Positions 10,515-35,907 of a stretch of 38,373 nt of DNA are shown piece by piece; the first letter of the stretch is position 1; every line of letters starts with the position of its first letter. This DNA is from Rhodospirillaceae bacterium BRH_c57 (lineage in GTDB: Bacteria > Pseudomonadota > Alphaproteobacteria > Rhodospirillales > Rhodospirillaceae): the NCBI GenBank assembly GCA_000961745.1, contig LAEA01000095.1:1-38373 (forward strand). The letters are read 5' to 3'. The notes beneath the pieces are model-generated. The model saw only the letters and a list, made by a program, of their open reading frames with translations, searched no databases and was not told the origin of the DNA. The position numbers and the translations under genes are program-made.

Positions 10515-10515
10515 A

Positions 10516-10570
10516 GGAAGGAACCGGGCTCTGCCCGAACCCGCCAGGAGCCACGGGCTCCTGGACCTCG
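10516..10570 (+). repeat. R2 palindromic repeat, copy 1, after the YeeE pair
   Basis: Two hairpins in a row: CGGGC-TCT-GCCCG, then CCAGGAGCC-ACG-GGCTCCTGG (10544-10564, 9 bp). An inverted copy of the same unit lies at 11047-11100, directly after frdD. In both places the unit follows a gene end in the same orientation relative to that gene. The second hairpin differs between copies by a paired change (GGAGCC/GGCTCC here, GGGGCC/GGCCCC there), which keeps the stem. A transcript-end role is inferred. Confidence 0.65.
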
Positions 10571-10647
10571 GGAATTGGCTTCACTAGGAAGCCGCGCGCA
10601 GCGCATTCATACCGTCCGCCCTATGAACTGACCCACTGGAAGAAGGT

Positions 10648-10719
10648 GGGCTGCCGCCCACGCCCGCTCGGGGTGAACCCCGAACCCCTTTTGTTTCTTT
10701 AAAGCGGTTTGCGTTTAAT
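10648..10719 (-). repeat. R1 palindromic repeat, left half of an interrupted copy (D)
   Basis: Matches the reverse complement of R1 copy A: GGGCTGCCGCCC, then hairpin TCGGGGT-GA-ACCCCGA, then the T-rich centre. Compared with copy A, that hairpin carries two compensating pair changes. The half ends in an arm (10698-10719) that pairs almost perfectly (20 of 22) with 10876-10897, where the other half resumes. About 155 bases containing copy C lie between them. The 10515-11116 stretch has no credible gene. Confidence 0.6.
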
Positions 10720-10748
10720 GTGAACCACGGCTTGGGCTTGTATATGTT

Positions 10749-10868
10749 GGGCTGCCGCCCAAGCCCGCTTGGGGCAAGCCCCAAACCCCATCTCATTTTT
10801 TAGAAGAAAAAGGGAGGTCTGGAGCGTAGCTCCAGGCTGGCGGCAGCCATCCGCGACAGCGGGTCACT
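10749..10868 (-). repeat. R1 palindromic repeat, full copy (C)
   Basis: Bounded by GGCTGCCGCC (10750-10759) and its complement (10839-10848). Inside are hairpins TTGGGGC-AA-GCCCCAA (10769-10784), an A/T-rich centre, and CTGGAGC-GTA-GCTCCAG (10819-10835). The order is the reverse complement of copy A at 34143-34270, and the similarity runs past the outer arm into TCCGCG-CAGCGG. It lies within the interrupted copy formed by D and E. Confidence 0.7.
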
Positions 10869-10875
10869 GCGTCAG

Positions 10876-10950
10876 ATTAAAAGCAAACCGCTTTAAGAAG
10901 AACAAGGAGGTTTGGAGCATCGCTCCAAATGGGTTCGGGCGATAGCCCGG
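10876..10950 (-). repeat. R1 palindromic repeat, right half of an interrupted copy (E)
   Basis: Starts with the arm complementary to 10698-10719 and continues with the R1 segment AAGAACAAGGAGGTTTGGAG and the hairpin TTTGGAGC-ATC-GCTCCAAA (10911-10929). In copies A and C this hairpin is CTGGAGC/GCTCCAG, so the C-G pair has become T-A on both sides. The outer end diverges from other copies (GGGC-GATA-GCCC instead of GGCGGCAGCC). Confidence 0.6.
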
Positions 10951-11046
10951 CCGCGCAAGCGACCATGAGGGGCGGTTCATGGGTCGGCTGGTATAAAGGC
11001 TGAGGGAATATCTGCCTGCGGCGCAAGGTGCGGGAACGCCTAAGTT

Positions 11047-11100
11047 TACGGGGTCAAGGGGCCGAGCGGCCCCTGGCGGGTACGGGCAGAGCCCGCCTTC
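11047..11100 (-). repeat. R2 palindromic repeat, copy 2, after frdD
   Basis: Reverse-orientation partner of 10516-10570. Contains GGGGCC-GAGC-GGCCCC (11058-11073) and CGGGC-AGA-GCCCG (11083-11095), starting 17 bases after the frdD stop in its transcription direction. Probably the 3' end of the frd transcript; there is no T-run, so it is not a textbook terminator. Confidence 0.6.
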
Positions 11101-11116
11101 CCCTAAAACCCGCACC

Positions 11117-33730: not shown

Positions 33731-34135
33731 ATGATCGGACGCCTTAATCACGTCGCCATCGCCGTTCCCGACCTGGAGGCCGCCTCGGCCACCTACCGCC
33801 AGGTTCTTGGTGCCAAGGTGTCCGATCCGCTGCCGCAGCCGGATCACGGGGTCACGGTGGTGTTCATCGAATTGGACAACACTAAGATCGAACTGCTCCA
33901 TCCGATGGGCGAGACGTCGCCGATCCAGGGGTTCCTGGACAAGAACCCGTCGGGCGGCATCCACCATGTGTGCTACGAGGTCGATGACATCCTGGCTGCG
34001 CGGGACAAGCTCAAGGCCGAGGGCGTACGCGTCCTGGGCAACGGCGAGCCCAAGATCGGCGCCCACGGCAAGCCGGTCCTGTTCCTGCACCCCAAGGACT
34101 TCACTGGCACGCTGGTGGAACTGGAGCAGGCGTAA
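33731..34135 (+). CDS. mce: Methylmalonyl-CoA epimerase
   Basis: 134 residues, glyoxalase/VOC fold. Interconverts (S)- and (R)-methylmalonyl-CoA between propionyl-CoA carboxylase and methylmalonyl-CoA mutase. Seen: IGRLNHVAIAVPDLEAA with His7, VFIELDNTKIELLHP, SGGIHHVCYEVDDI with His78/79, and GTLVELEQA with Glu130; these are the expected metal-ligand positions. Last gene of the long operon, 26 bases after rnj, followed by R1 repeat copy A. The pathway could run toward succinate, or in reverse toward propionate when fumarate is the electron sink. Confidence 0.95.
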   Translation: MIGRLNHVAIAVPDLEAASATYRQVLGAKVSDPLPQPDHGVTVVFIELDNTKIELLHPMGETSPIQGFLDKNPSGGIHHVCYEVDDILAARDKLKAEGVRVLGNGEPKIGAHGKPVLFLHPKDFTGTLVELEQA

Positions 34136-34142
34136 AGCGTGG

Positions 34143-34270
34143 TCCGCTGACGCGGAGGGCTGCCGCCAGCCTGGAGCGATGCTCCAGACCTCCCTTGTTT
34201 TCTTGAAGAAGAAAAGGGGGGTTGGGGCCTGCCCCAAGCAGTCGGGCGGCAGCCCGTCCGCGCCAGCGGA
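34143..34270 (+). repeat. R1 palindromic repeat, full copy (A), after mce
   Basis: Outer arms of about 25 bases (34143-34167 and 34245-34270) pair almost perfectly: TCCGCTGACGCGGA-GGGCTGCCGCC against its complement with one mismatch and one bulge. Inside are three hairpins: CTGGAGC-GAT-GCTCCAG (34171-34187), TTTTCTT-GAAG-AAGAAAA (34198-34215) and TTGGGGC-CT-GCCCCAA (34222-34237). On paper the whole folds into a stem with three arms. It starts 7 bases after the mce stop. Fills most of the mce-tag spacer. Confidence 0.75.
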
Positions 34271-34361
34271 ATCCTGTGCTTCAAGTCTTTCCCCATAGTC
34301 TTGTATCCTCGTGGCCGGGCCTGTCCCGGCCATGATTCGTTTTGGGGGAGGAGAGGACGCC

Positions 34362-34943
34362 ATGAATTGGTACTGCGACGTCGCACCCGGCCATGACCTG
34401 CACGGTCCTTATCATGACGACGAATACGGGTTCCCGGTGCGTGATGACCGGGTGCTGTTCGAGCGGTTGTGCCTGGAGATATTCCAGGCGGGGCTGTCGT
34501 GGGAATTGATTCTGCGCCGCCGGCCGGGTCTGAACGCCGCCTTCCACGATTTCGACATCGACACGGTGGCGGCCTATGGGGACGACGACGTGGCGCGGTT
34601 GCTGGGCGACGCGCGGATCATCCGCAACCGCTTGAAGGTGGCCGCGATCATCGGCAATGCGCGCCGTGTTCAGACTTTACGGGACGAGTTCGGGCGGGGC
34701 GAGGTCGGCGGGTTTGCCGCGTGGCTTGATGCCCACCATCCGCTGACCTTGAAGCAGTGGGTGAAGGTGTTCCGCAAGACCTTCGCGTTCACCGGCCCTG
34801 AGGTGGTCAACGAGTTCCTGATGAGCATCGGCATGCTGCCGGGCGGCCACCGCGCCGATTGCCCGGTGCAGGTGCGCCTGACCCCGCTGCGGCCACCGTG
34901 GATGACTGCGCAGGAGGCAGGGTTTGACTATTCAGGAGGGTGA
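34362..34943 (+). CDS. tag: DNA-3-methyladenine glycosylase I
   Basis: 193 residues (E. coli Tag 187). Excises 3-methyladenine from alkylated DNA. Seen: YHDDEYGFPVRDDRVLFERL, CLEIFQAGLSWELILRRRPG and FDIDTVAAYGDDDVARLLGD. Zinc ligands are all in place: Cys5, His18 and the late pair GHRADC (His and Cys four apart), as in E. coli Cys4/His17/His175/Cys179. Start chosen at 34362 for GGAGGAGAGG upstream and alignment to Tag. A textbook terminator follows. Confidence 0.95.
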   Translation: MNWYCDVAPGHDLHGPYHDDEYGFPVRDDRVLFERLCLEIFQAGLSWELILRRRPGLNAAFHDFDIDTVAAYGDDDVARLLGDARIIRNRLKVAAIIGNARRVQTLRDEFGRGEVGGFAAWLDAHHPLTLKQWVKVFRKTFAFTGPEVVNEFLMSIGMLPGGHRADCPVQVRLTPLRPPWMTAQEAGFDYSGG

Positions 34944-34961: not shown

Positions 34962-34996
34962 GAGCGGAACCCTTGGGGGCTCCGCTCATTTCTTTT
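34962..34996 (+). terminator. Rho-independent terminator of tag
   Basis: GAGCGGA-CCC pairs with GGG-TCCGCTC around a short loop and is followed by ATTTCTTTT. It begins 18 bases after the tag stop. Confidence 0.85.
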
Positions 34997-35299: not shown

Positions 35300-35776
35300 A
35301 TGCACTATACTTCATGGGGTACTGCTTTGGGGGTCGCTCTGGCGGTGCTGGCCAGTCCTGCCGCAGCCGAGTCTCAAAAGGATGAGACGGTGGCTGTCGT
35401 GGTCGACGGGCGCACCTGCCTCGGCCTGACCGAGGTGTCGGACGCGCGCGGGGTTGCCCCTGCGGACGGGGGAGCCTACCGTCCTGGTACGGATGTCCGC
35501 GGCCGTGCCGTGGTCCCGGCTGAAGGACCGGGTGGTGGTCCTGACTGGTCGGGTCTGGCCGACACCCTAAAGATCAATGTCGAAGTGGATCTGGCGGAGC
35601 GTTATGGCACCGCCCTGCCATCGGGCAGCACATTGCCCCTTGGAACCATCGAATTGCGCGACGGCCGTGCCTGGTTCAACGGCCAGCCTCTTGCTGGGCA
35701 CGACCGCGAAGCCTTGTGGCAGGCCTGCTGGCGCCTCGGCGTCTTGCAGCGCAAGGCCGATCAGCCAAAGCCTTGA
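35300..35776 (+). CDS. Secreted protein of unknown function, 158 aa
   Basis: A signal peptide covers about residues 1-23 (WGTALGVALAVLASPAAA, cleavage likely at AAA-ES). The mature part of about 135 residues is Gly/Asp-rich with two Cys (Cys40 in GRTCLGLTEV and Cys143 in WQACWRLGVLQ) that could pair in the periplasm. The end is Lys/Pro-rich (RKADQPKP). There is no membrane helix, lipobox or known domain. The ribosome site is weak (GGGAAAAC). A truncated R1 repeat copy follows 5 bases after the stop. Confidence 0.75.
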   Translation: MHYTSWGTALGVALAVLASPAAAESQKDETVAVVVDGRTCLGLTEVSDARGVAPADGGAYRPGTDVRGRAVVPAEGPGGGPDWSGLADTLKINVEVDLAERYGTALPSGSTLPLGTIELRDGRAWFNGQPLAGHDREALWQACWRLGVLQRKADQPKP

Positions 35777-35781
35777 GTGAA

Positions 35782-35858
35782 CTCCAGACCTCCTTTGTTT
35801 TCTTGAAGAAGAAAAAGGGATTTGGGGTTTGCCCCAAGCGGGTTTGGGCGGCAGCCCA
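35782..35858 (+). repeat. R1 palindromic repeat, partial copy (B)
   Basis: Identical in order to copy A from CTCCAGACCTCC onward: hairpin TTTTCTT-GAAG-AAGAAAA, hairpin TTGGGGT-TT-GCCCCAA (one G-T wobble replacing C-G), then GGGCGGCAGCCC. The left arm and first hairpin half are missing. It lies between convergent genes (secreted protein and EAL protein). Confidence 0.7.
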
Positions 35859-35907
35859 AGATGCACGAGAGCAGGCGATGGTTCACGGTAGGTGTAAGTC
35901 GCGCCGA

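Follow-up and report, generated by a model that had tools for sequence, protein, structure and literature searches.

A dispersed hairpin-string element at gene 3′ ends in Rhodospirillaceae bacterium BRH_c57, a possible mobile two-way terminator

Many bacteria are known to have small repeats between the ends of their genes, and an old question is whether they are tolerated junk or working gene ends. In the pneumococcus, SPRITE is a terminator-like small repeat that is enriched between convergent genes and near 3′ ends, and its co-option as a terminator has been suggested; for a second pneumococcal repeat, RUP, movement by IS630-Spn1 has been hypothesised (PMC3049150). Br-REP1 of Bradyrhizobium consists of three palindromes located in the overlapping 3′-UTRs of convergent genes, and its central stem-loop occurs at about 200 sites (PMC5082802). 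REPs are also known beside gene 3′ ends (PMC3733652, PMC1525189). The GTAG and CGTC REPs are palindromes of 20–40 bp carrying a tag; GTAG REPs are tied to RAYT transposases, and CGTC REPs are defined by a stem of 8–9 bp with A/T pairs in the first and second position (PMC3733652). A review of prokaryotic MITEs treats terminator formation by such elements as conceivable (PMC10969869).

Here we describe a hairpin-string element, copy A, in a window of 38,373 nucleotides (contig LAEA01000095.1 of assembly GCA_000961745.1) from Rhodospirillaceae bacterium BRH_c57, together with the repeat family to which it belongs. Its parts and its surroundings are listed in Table 1.

Fold of copy A and covariation of its hairpins

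Copy A is an imperfect palindrome of 128 nt, in which 34143–34167 differs from the reverse complement of 34245–34270 by one mismatch and one extra base. The predicted RNA fold of the + strand has a minimum free energy of −90.7 kcal/mol (z −8.62, equalled by 0/200 shuffles) and consists of a closing stem and three hairpins with 7, 9+6 and 5 pairs. The minus strand folds almost as strongly (−90.4 kcal/mol, z −8.58 against 200 shuffles), with a longer stem in which the three arms are not reproduced. A preliminary description, made from the letters of the window alone, had placed an inverted repeat of about 25 bases around three 7-bp hairpins, some 128 bases in all, just after mce. The arm comparison and the fold bear out the repeat and its extent, the element does start 7 nt past the mce stop codon, and the three arms exist on the + strand, with pair numbers other than 7 each. 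The fold is also stable beyond shuffled controls, as that description had proposed to check, with 0/200 shuffles matching it and z about −8.6 on both strands. Because copy A is 75% identical to its own reverse complement (DNA comparison) and its strands fold about equally, an RNA and a cruciform are inseparable by sequence. No encoded protein is visible in copy A, the scan for tRNA and tmRNA found none and thus no such origin for it, and no Rfam family reached its gathering score anywhere in the window.

Table 1. Coordinates of copy A, its parts and the neighbouring or related features in the window
Feature	Position	Strand	Basis or remark
mce-like gene (Glyoxalase_4, Pfam glyoxalase fold)	33731..34135	+	stop codon 7 nt before copy A
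mce stop codon TAA + AGCGTGG; first bases fit the family terminal repeat (TA AAGCG), possible remnant	34133..34142	+	sequence
Copy A, hairpin-string element, A type, TCCGC palindrome at each end	34143..34270		fold z, 58-copy family, R1
H1, palindrome TCCGCTGACGCGGA	34143..34156		covariation helix 1
H3, first-arm hairpin CTGGAGC-GAT-GCTCCAG, terminator-like on +	34171..34187		covariation helix 2
H4, central U-rich / A-rich hairpin, source of the U-rich tract for both strands	34193..34217		covariation helix 3
H5, third-arm hairpin TTGGGGCCTGCCCCAA, terminator-like on −	34222..34237		covariation helix 4
H6, hairpin TCGGGC-GGCA-GCCCGT, competitor of the closing stem	34242..34257		covariation helix 5
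Right-hand TCCGC palindrome, A type only	34257..34270		seen in 11/58 copies
tag-like gene (Adenine_glyco)	34362..34943	+	downstream of copy A
Copy B, left part altered	35741..35860	+	R1 E 5e-22
192-nt full-length copy (B type), terminal repeats at both ends, inside another copy, TA duplicated	10702..10893	−	sequence, empty-site reconstruction
Host copy (D type) split by the 192-nt insertion; bounds from match to L047	10641..10961	−	joined flanks

The covariance model R1 was built from 43 copies (alignment A1), with 15 of the 58 copies known from this genome left out as truncated or rearranged; copy A, which R1 matches at 34141–34258 (E 2.7e-28), is itself among the 43. The local hairpins covary in two genera. 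Across H1, H3, H4, H5 and H6 (31 pairs in the 43 copies), 93.9% of cells are paired, 11 pairs show two-sided change, and two-sided cells number 64 where shuffles give 26. On any of five measures the observed value is reached by 0/500 shuffles, and slid controls drop to 42–58% paired; H4 is the weaker one, with 84.7% of its cells paired. In a second genus (G017, 20 copies), the hairpins have 57 two-sided cells against 21 in shuffles and a covariation score of 0.271 against 0.143, each reached by 0/500 shuffles, and two measures do not rise above shuffles, namely pairs with two-sided change (94/500) and further pair types (500/500). These covariation counts are inflated by the kinship of the copies, and compensatory changes could also arise from DNA-level correction of palindromes.

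The inner closing stem (10 pairs, 43 copies) has a single two-sided cell, with 108–163 of 500 shuffles reaching its values, and the corresponding stem of G017 shows no covariation (389–483/500 shuffles). The test covered the inner pairs in two genera, and with counts at shuffle level in both, it does not support the closing stem as the conserved structure. Its outer part in copy A depends on the right-hand TCCGC palindrome, present in 11/58 copies. The cloverleaf with a long closing stem in the preliminary description consequently holds for the sequence of copy A and lacks covariation in the tested inner stem of the family, and the covariance model from genomic copies that it had proposed as a check favours the local hairpins and not the inner closing stem. 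Its broader claim of a structured element is supported by the strong fold, the covarying hairpins and the dispersed copies.

A dispersed family with transposon ends, and the mce–tag locus

Copies of the element are dispersed through the genome (3.9 Mb, 274 contigs, 81.7% complete), in which a DNA search gave at least 65 matches on both strands, the best 40 of 138 candidates being scored. A 21-base central motif (≤3 mismatches) has 47 matches, some sites counting on both strands, against 0 for a reversed control, and a wider H1 motif has 94 matches (≤2 mismatches, both strands) against 3; 58 distinct copies were counted in the fetched stretches. In a direct DNA search, 8 of 61 genomes gave matches, its own included, and 0/24 of those from other families of the order. 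R1 finds matches in at least 8 of 41 genomes, again its own included, which are 8 of the 25 from its own GTDB family and belong to eight different genera; under strict filters, with at most 89 candidates scored per genome, there were none among the 16 genomes of other families. In G011, one of these eight, R1 has just one weak match, and deeper scoring at E ≤ 0.001, both strands counted, gave 141 matches in G015, 45 in G030 and 30 in G009. A pattern scan also reached two MAGs labelled Rhodospirillales bacterium, ES-bin-250 and ES-bin-283. As side observations, four G030 copies (L153, L154, L155 and L156) have an additional long inverted repeat within the U-rich centre, and copy B overlaps the end of the ORF at 35300–35776, the stop and last codons of which seem by eye to be derived from the element.

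One transposition event is recorded in the window. Removing 10702–10893 together with one TA restores the match to intact copies over the junction (92% over 127 nt with the copy L047), and the TA target duplication belongs to this one event, that is to the nested copy rather than to copy A. The end of the nested copy is identical in 27/27 bases to sequence just past a copy of a PF13358 (IS630-type) transposase (L066), where no corresponding left end was found. At 5 of 7 other PF13358 loci there is a weaker end match of 17–20/27 starting TAGAGCG, where the best unrelated matches reach 15–17. The convergent gap that holds the nested copy, 10515–11116 (602 nt), is a mosaic of a B-type copy within a D-type copy, and at its edges there are weak R1 matches and a further inverted pair, 10525–10552 / 11068–11095 (93% complementary), which is perhaps a third nested element.

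End pairs scoring above 99% of shuffles occur in 2/58 copies here, 11/20 in G015, 2/20 in G017 and 2/10 in G030, and in 0/4 in G009, where 4 of its 10 copies were tested. Some G015 ends start TAGAGCAGCG, similar by eye to the IS630 ends of the BRH_c57 genome. An end pair in G017 (L135, L144) is a terminal repeat of 36 nt that does not resemble the IS630 ends, around the same core type, a sequence pattern that suggests exchange of transposon ends. Thirteen copies in BRH_c57 carry a left terminal repeat scoring at least 16, and in 5 of the 13 (L008, L017, L034, L036 and L043) its first bases coincide with the upstream stop codon at an offset of 0 or 1 base. On copy A no terminal inverted repeats are significant against shuffles; the terminal-repeat (TIR) score at its mce stop is 13, equal to the 95% shuffle threshold of 13 and not significant. 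The family behaves as an IS630-type MITE, being short, non-coding and dispersed, with a full-length copy of 192 nt, and copy A is best explained as a decayed member of this family of non-autonomous small transposons of MITE type with IS630-like ends and a TA target.

At the locus of copy A, mce was found in 14/14 relatives asked and a tag-like gene is present on the mce locus in 9/14. In 5/14 (L169, L176, L179, L180 and L181) tag lies within about 60 nt of mce or touches it, so that copy A occupies a gene pair that is compact in several relatives; in 3 relatives other sequence lies between the two. The mce–tag gap of G006 (L172, a different genus) has a hairpin-string element at 1950–2029 with a weak R1 match (E 1e-5), which could have inserted independently or be shared by old descent. 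In L175 of G015, what looks by eye like the truncated left end of a G015-type element follows soon after mce, outside the R1 matches. Were all transcription to stop at copy A, expression of tag would depend on a promoter of its own.

Placement at gene 3′ ends and terminator-like sites on both strands

The element lies at gene 3′ ends and, in its own genome, is enriched between convergent genes. Genes were called by codon usage, with a simple ORF caller that had this window as its sole training sequence. With both neighbours called for 55 of the 58 copies, 34 are convergent, 12 + 7 tandem and 2 divergent; the other 3 have an uncalled neighbour, and two gaps are counted twice (one with the window's nested pair, one with two copies in L016). 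In a background of 427 kb, 50/304 gaps (16%) are convergent and 49/304 divergent, and convergent and divergent gaps hold 16% and 31% of intergenic bases. The binomial p for 34/55, with the two gaps counted twice, is 4e-14 against an expectation of 16.4% and 4e-11 against 20.7%. An R1 survey of the same 427 kb, the contigs of which were picked mainly by length or known matches and are a non-random sample, gave 15 strong copies, of which the 14 placed are 11 convergent, 3 tandem and 0 divergent (strands merged, and counted without the interrupted host copy at 10646–10703, E 5.7e-9, whose gap was already included). Among gaps of at least 100 nt in this survey, a copy is held by 11/35 convergent, 3/98 tandem and 0/44 divergent ones. 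Where the left gene runs toward the element (47 copies, own genome), the median distance from stop codon to core is 25 nt, and in 21/34 convergent rows at most 60 nt remains on either side of the core.

In four relatives, 60 copies were taken from the best-scoring matches listed, and the 54 callable ones (six have an uncalled neighbour) are 22 convergent, 32 tandem and 0 divergent. Convergent copies number 12/19 in G015, 6/9 in G009, 3/16 in G017 and 1/10 in G030, and the gene-orientation background above is that of the BRH_c57 genome; the low shares in G017 and G030 mean that the convergent preference is not general. A bias to 3′ ends alone would also be expected from selection against insertions in promoters.

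By a rule of hairpin, spacer and U-rich tract, copy A has TGGAGCGATGCTCCA, next GACCTCCCTTGTTTT, on the + strand and TTGGGGCAGGCCCCAA, next CCCCCCTTTTCTT, on the minus strand. Copy A is absent from the sites listed by a standard terminator scan, and its U-tract does not directly follow the GC-rich hairpin; the spacer between them exceeds the canonical length, and the site emerges only when a longer spacer is allowed. What the scan does list is a + site at 34309–34335 and minus sites at 34987–34962 and 35837–35822, the last within copy B. The site at 34309–34335, downstream of copy A and upstream of tag, is a separate terminator-like hairpin.

Under a strict rule (U-tract ≤2 nt from the stem, site within 100 nt of a gene 3′ end), sites occur at 18/68 gene 3′ ends in element-bearing convergent gaps and at 7/82 in element-free ones (Fisher p 0.004), compared with 3/68 when sequence outside the core alone is used and 21/1500 random stretches. 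By the same rule, canonical terminators look rare in this GC-rich genome, given the 7/82 element-free convergent gene ends. A relaxed rule (hairpin, spacer of 0–8 nt and ≥6 T of 8, within 130 nt) finds sites at 47/68 element-bearing ends against 3/82 element-free ends and 16/1000 random stretches; its spacer was chosen after the element was seen, and copies related to one another do not count as independent. A GC hairpin followed after a short spacer by a U-rich tract is present on both strands in 34/43 aligned copies of the own genome, in 16/20 copies of G017, 6/10 of G030, 5/20 of G015 and 3/10 of G009, with 7/690 in flank controls of the four relatives. In G015 and G009 it is the + strand site that is usually missing (5/20 and 3/10). 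The preliminary description had not reported the mobility of the element, its placement at gene 3′ ends or the terminator-like sites on both strands.

Readings of the element and comparison with described repeats

From its sequence features, we favour reading the element as a mobile two-way terminator or mRNA 3′-end element, with a probability of roughly 0.55. Its cargo would be a string of short GC-rich hairpins, almost the same on both strands and with a U-rich/A-rich centre, which may form the 3′ end of mRNAs coming from either side. A polymerase arriving from the left would transcribe H3, the spacer ACCTCC and a U-rich tract, and for one arriving from the right the order would be H5, C-rich spacer, U-rich tract. 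Transcripts from either side would then end, or be trimmed to a stable hairpin, within the element, and neighbouring convergent genes would be spared mutual read-through. Insertions near stop codons might be tolerated because the inserted DNA brings an end signal with it and rebuilds the stop codon when landing in its TA. More tentatively, and as a possibility that we hold less probable than the reading itself, selection may keep the hairpin cargo of a transposable two-way terminator across seven or eight genera while the ends are lost or exchanged, so that the family would supply the 3′ ends of many convergent pairs and rewire them by hopping into stop codons.

The foremost rival, doubtful and yet the best of the alternatives, is a neutral or parasitic MITE, the hairpins of which are a palindromic by-product and for which gene 3′ ends are the least harmful landing sites. 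The IS630-like ends, the TA duplication and the nesting agree with it, as do the 0/54 divergent copies among those callable in the four relatives, which pure promoter avoidance predicts. Pneumococcal repeats and IS elements are equally biased to convergent gaps, which their authors say may indicate mobile, parasitic entities (PMC3049150). Against a by-product, two-sided changes maintain the hairpins in two genera while the ends decay or differ (2/58 above 99% of shuffles), and 11 of the 35 roomy convergent gaps in the surveyed stretches are occupied. The two answers to the old question can be told apart in this family, since its design is two-way, a transposition has left its footprint, an end matches that of an IS, and relatives from several genera carry other ends; the separating question is whether the cargo is still functional after the ends decay. 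If the element terminates transcription, it shows mobile DNA handing out gene ends in a GC-rich genome.

An improbable alternative is a REP-like cruciform at the DNA level, which between convergent genes would bind a DNA protein or relax positive supercoiling. REPs have been described between convergent genes (PMC1525189, PMC3733652), and strand symmetry (75%) and nearly equal fold energies of the two strands are consistent with a cruciform, but a large cruciform would use the inner closing stem, which is without covariation, and the hairpin, spacer and U-rich tract on both strands would be superfluous for protein binding. The structured regulatory or trans-acting cloverleaf RNA of the preliminary description is very improbable, for copy A does fold strongly, but there is no Rfam match at gathering scores, the tested closing stem does not covary, and the copies are many, dispersed and strand-symmetric.

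Two REP classes were tried and rejected as an assignment for the element. A RAYT-driven (GTAG) REP is not favoured by the 0 matches to PF01797 (Y1_Tnp) in a genome 81.7% complete, and the TCCGC palindrome has a stem of 5 bp where the CGTC REP definition gives 8–9 bp (PMC3733652). The GTAG and CGTC REPs are nevertheless alike in being palindromic, intergenic and often near gene 3′ ends (PMC3733652).

With the two-way terminator or mRNA 3′-end element as the preferred reading, the closest functional analogue is SPRITE, which is dispersed, terminator-like and convergent-enriched. As described in the sections of PMC3049150 drawn on here, SPRITE has one 18-bp duplex and one U-rich tract, is AT-rich and has no significant similarity to IS ends, whereas the hairpin-string family is GC-rich, resembles a terminator on each strand in most copies aligned from this genome, and is IS630-like at the ends of some. 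RUP is the closest in mobilisation, being MITE-like and linked to the IS630 group as the hairpin-string family is; it differs in being AT-rich and in having terminal repeats that pair with each other in the fold, and a two-way terminator design is not among the features reported in those sections (PMC3049150). Br-REP1 resembles the family as an alphaproteobacterial dispersed element of three palindromes and differs in its sequence, and the portions of PMC5082802 used here report neither TIRs nor a TA duplication nor an IS link. In mostly open-access literature, largely at the level of titles and abstracts, we recognised no description of this family or of its two-way design with IS630-like ends. 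The kind of element is already known, with SPRITE, REPs and RUP as its published close analogues.
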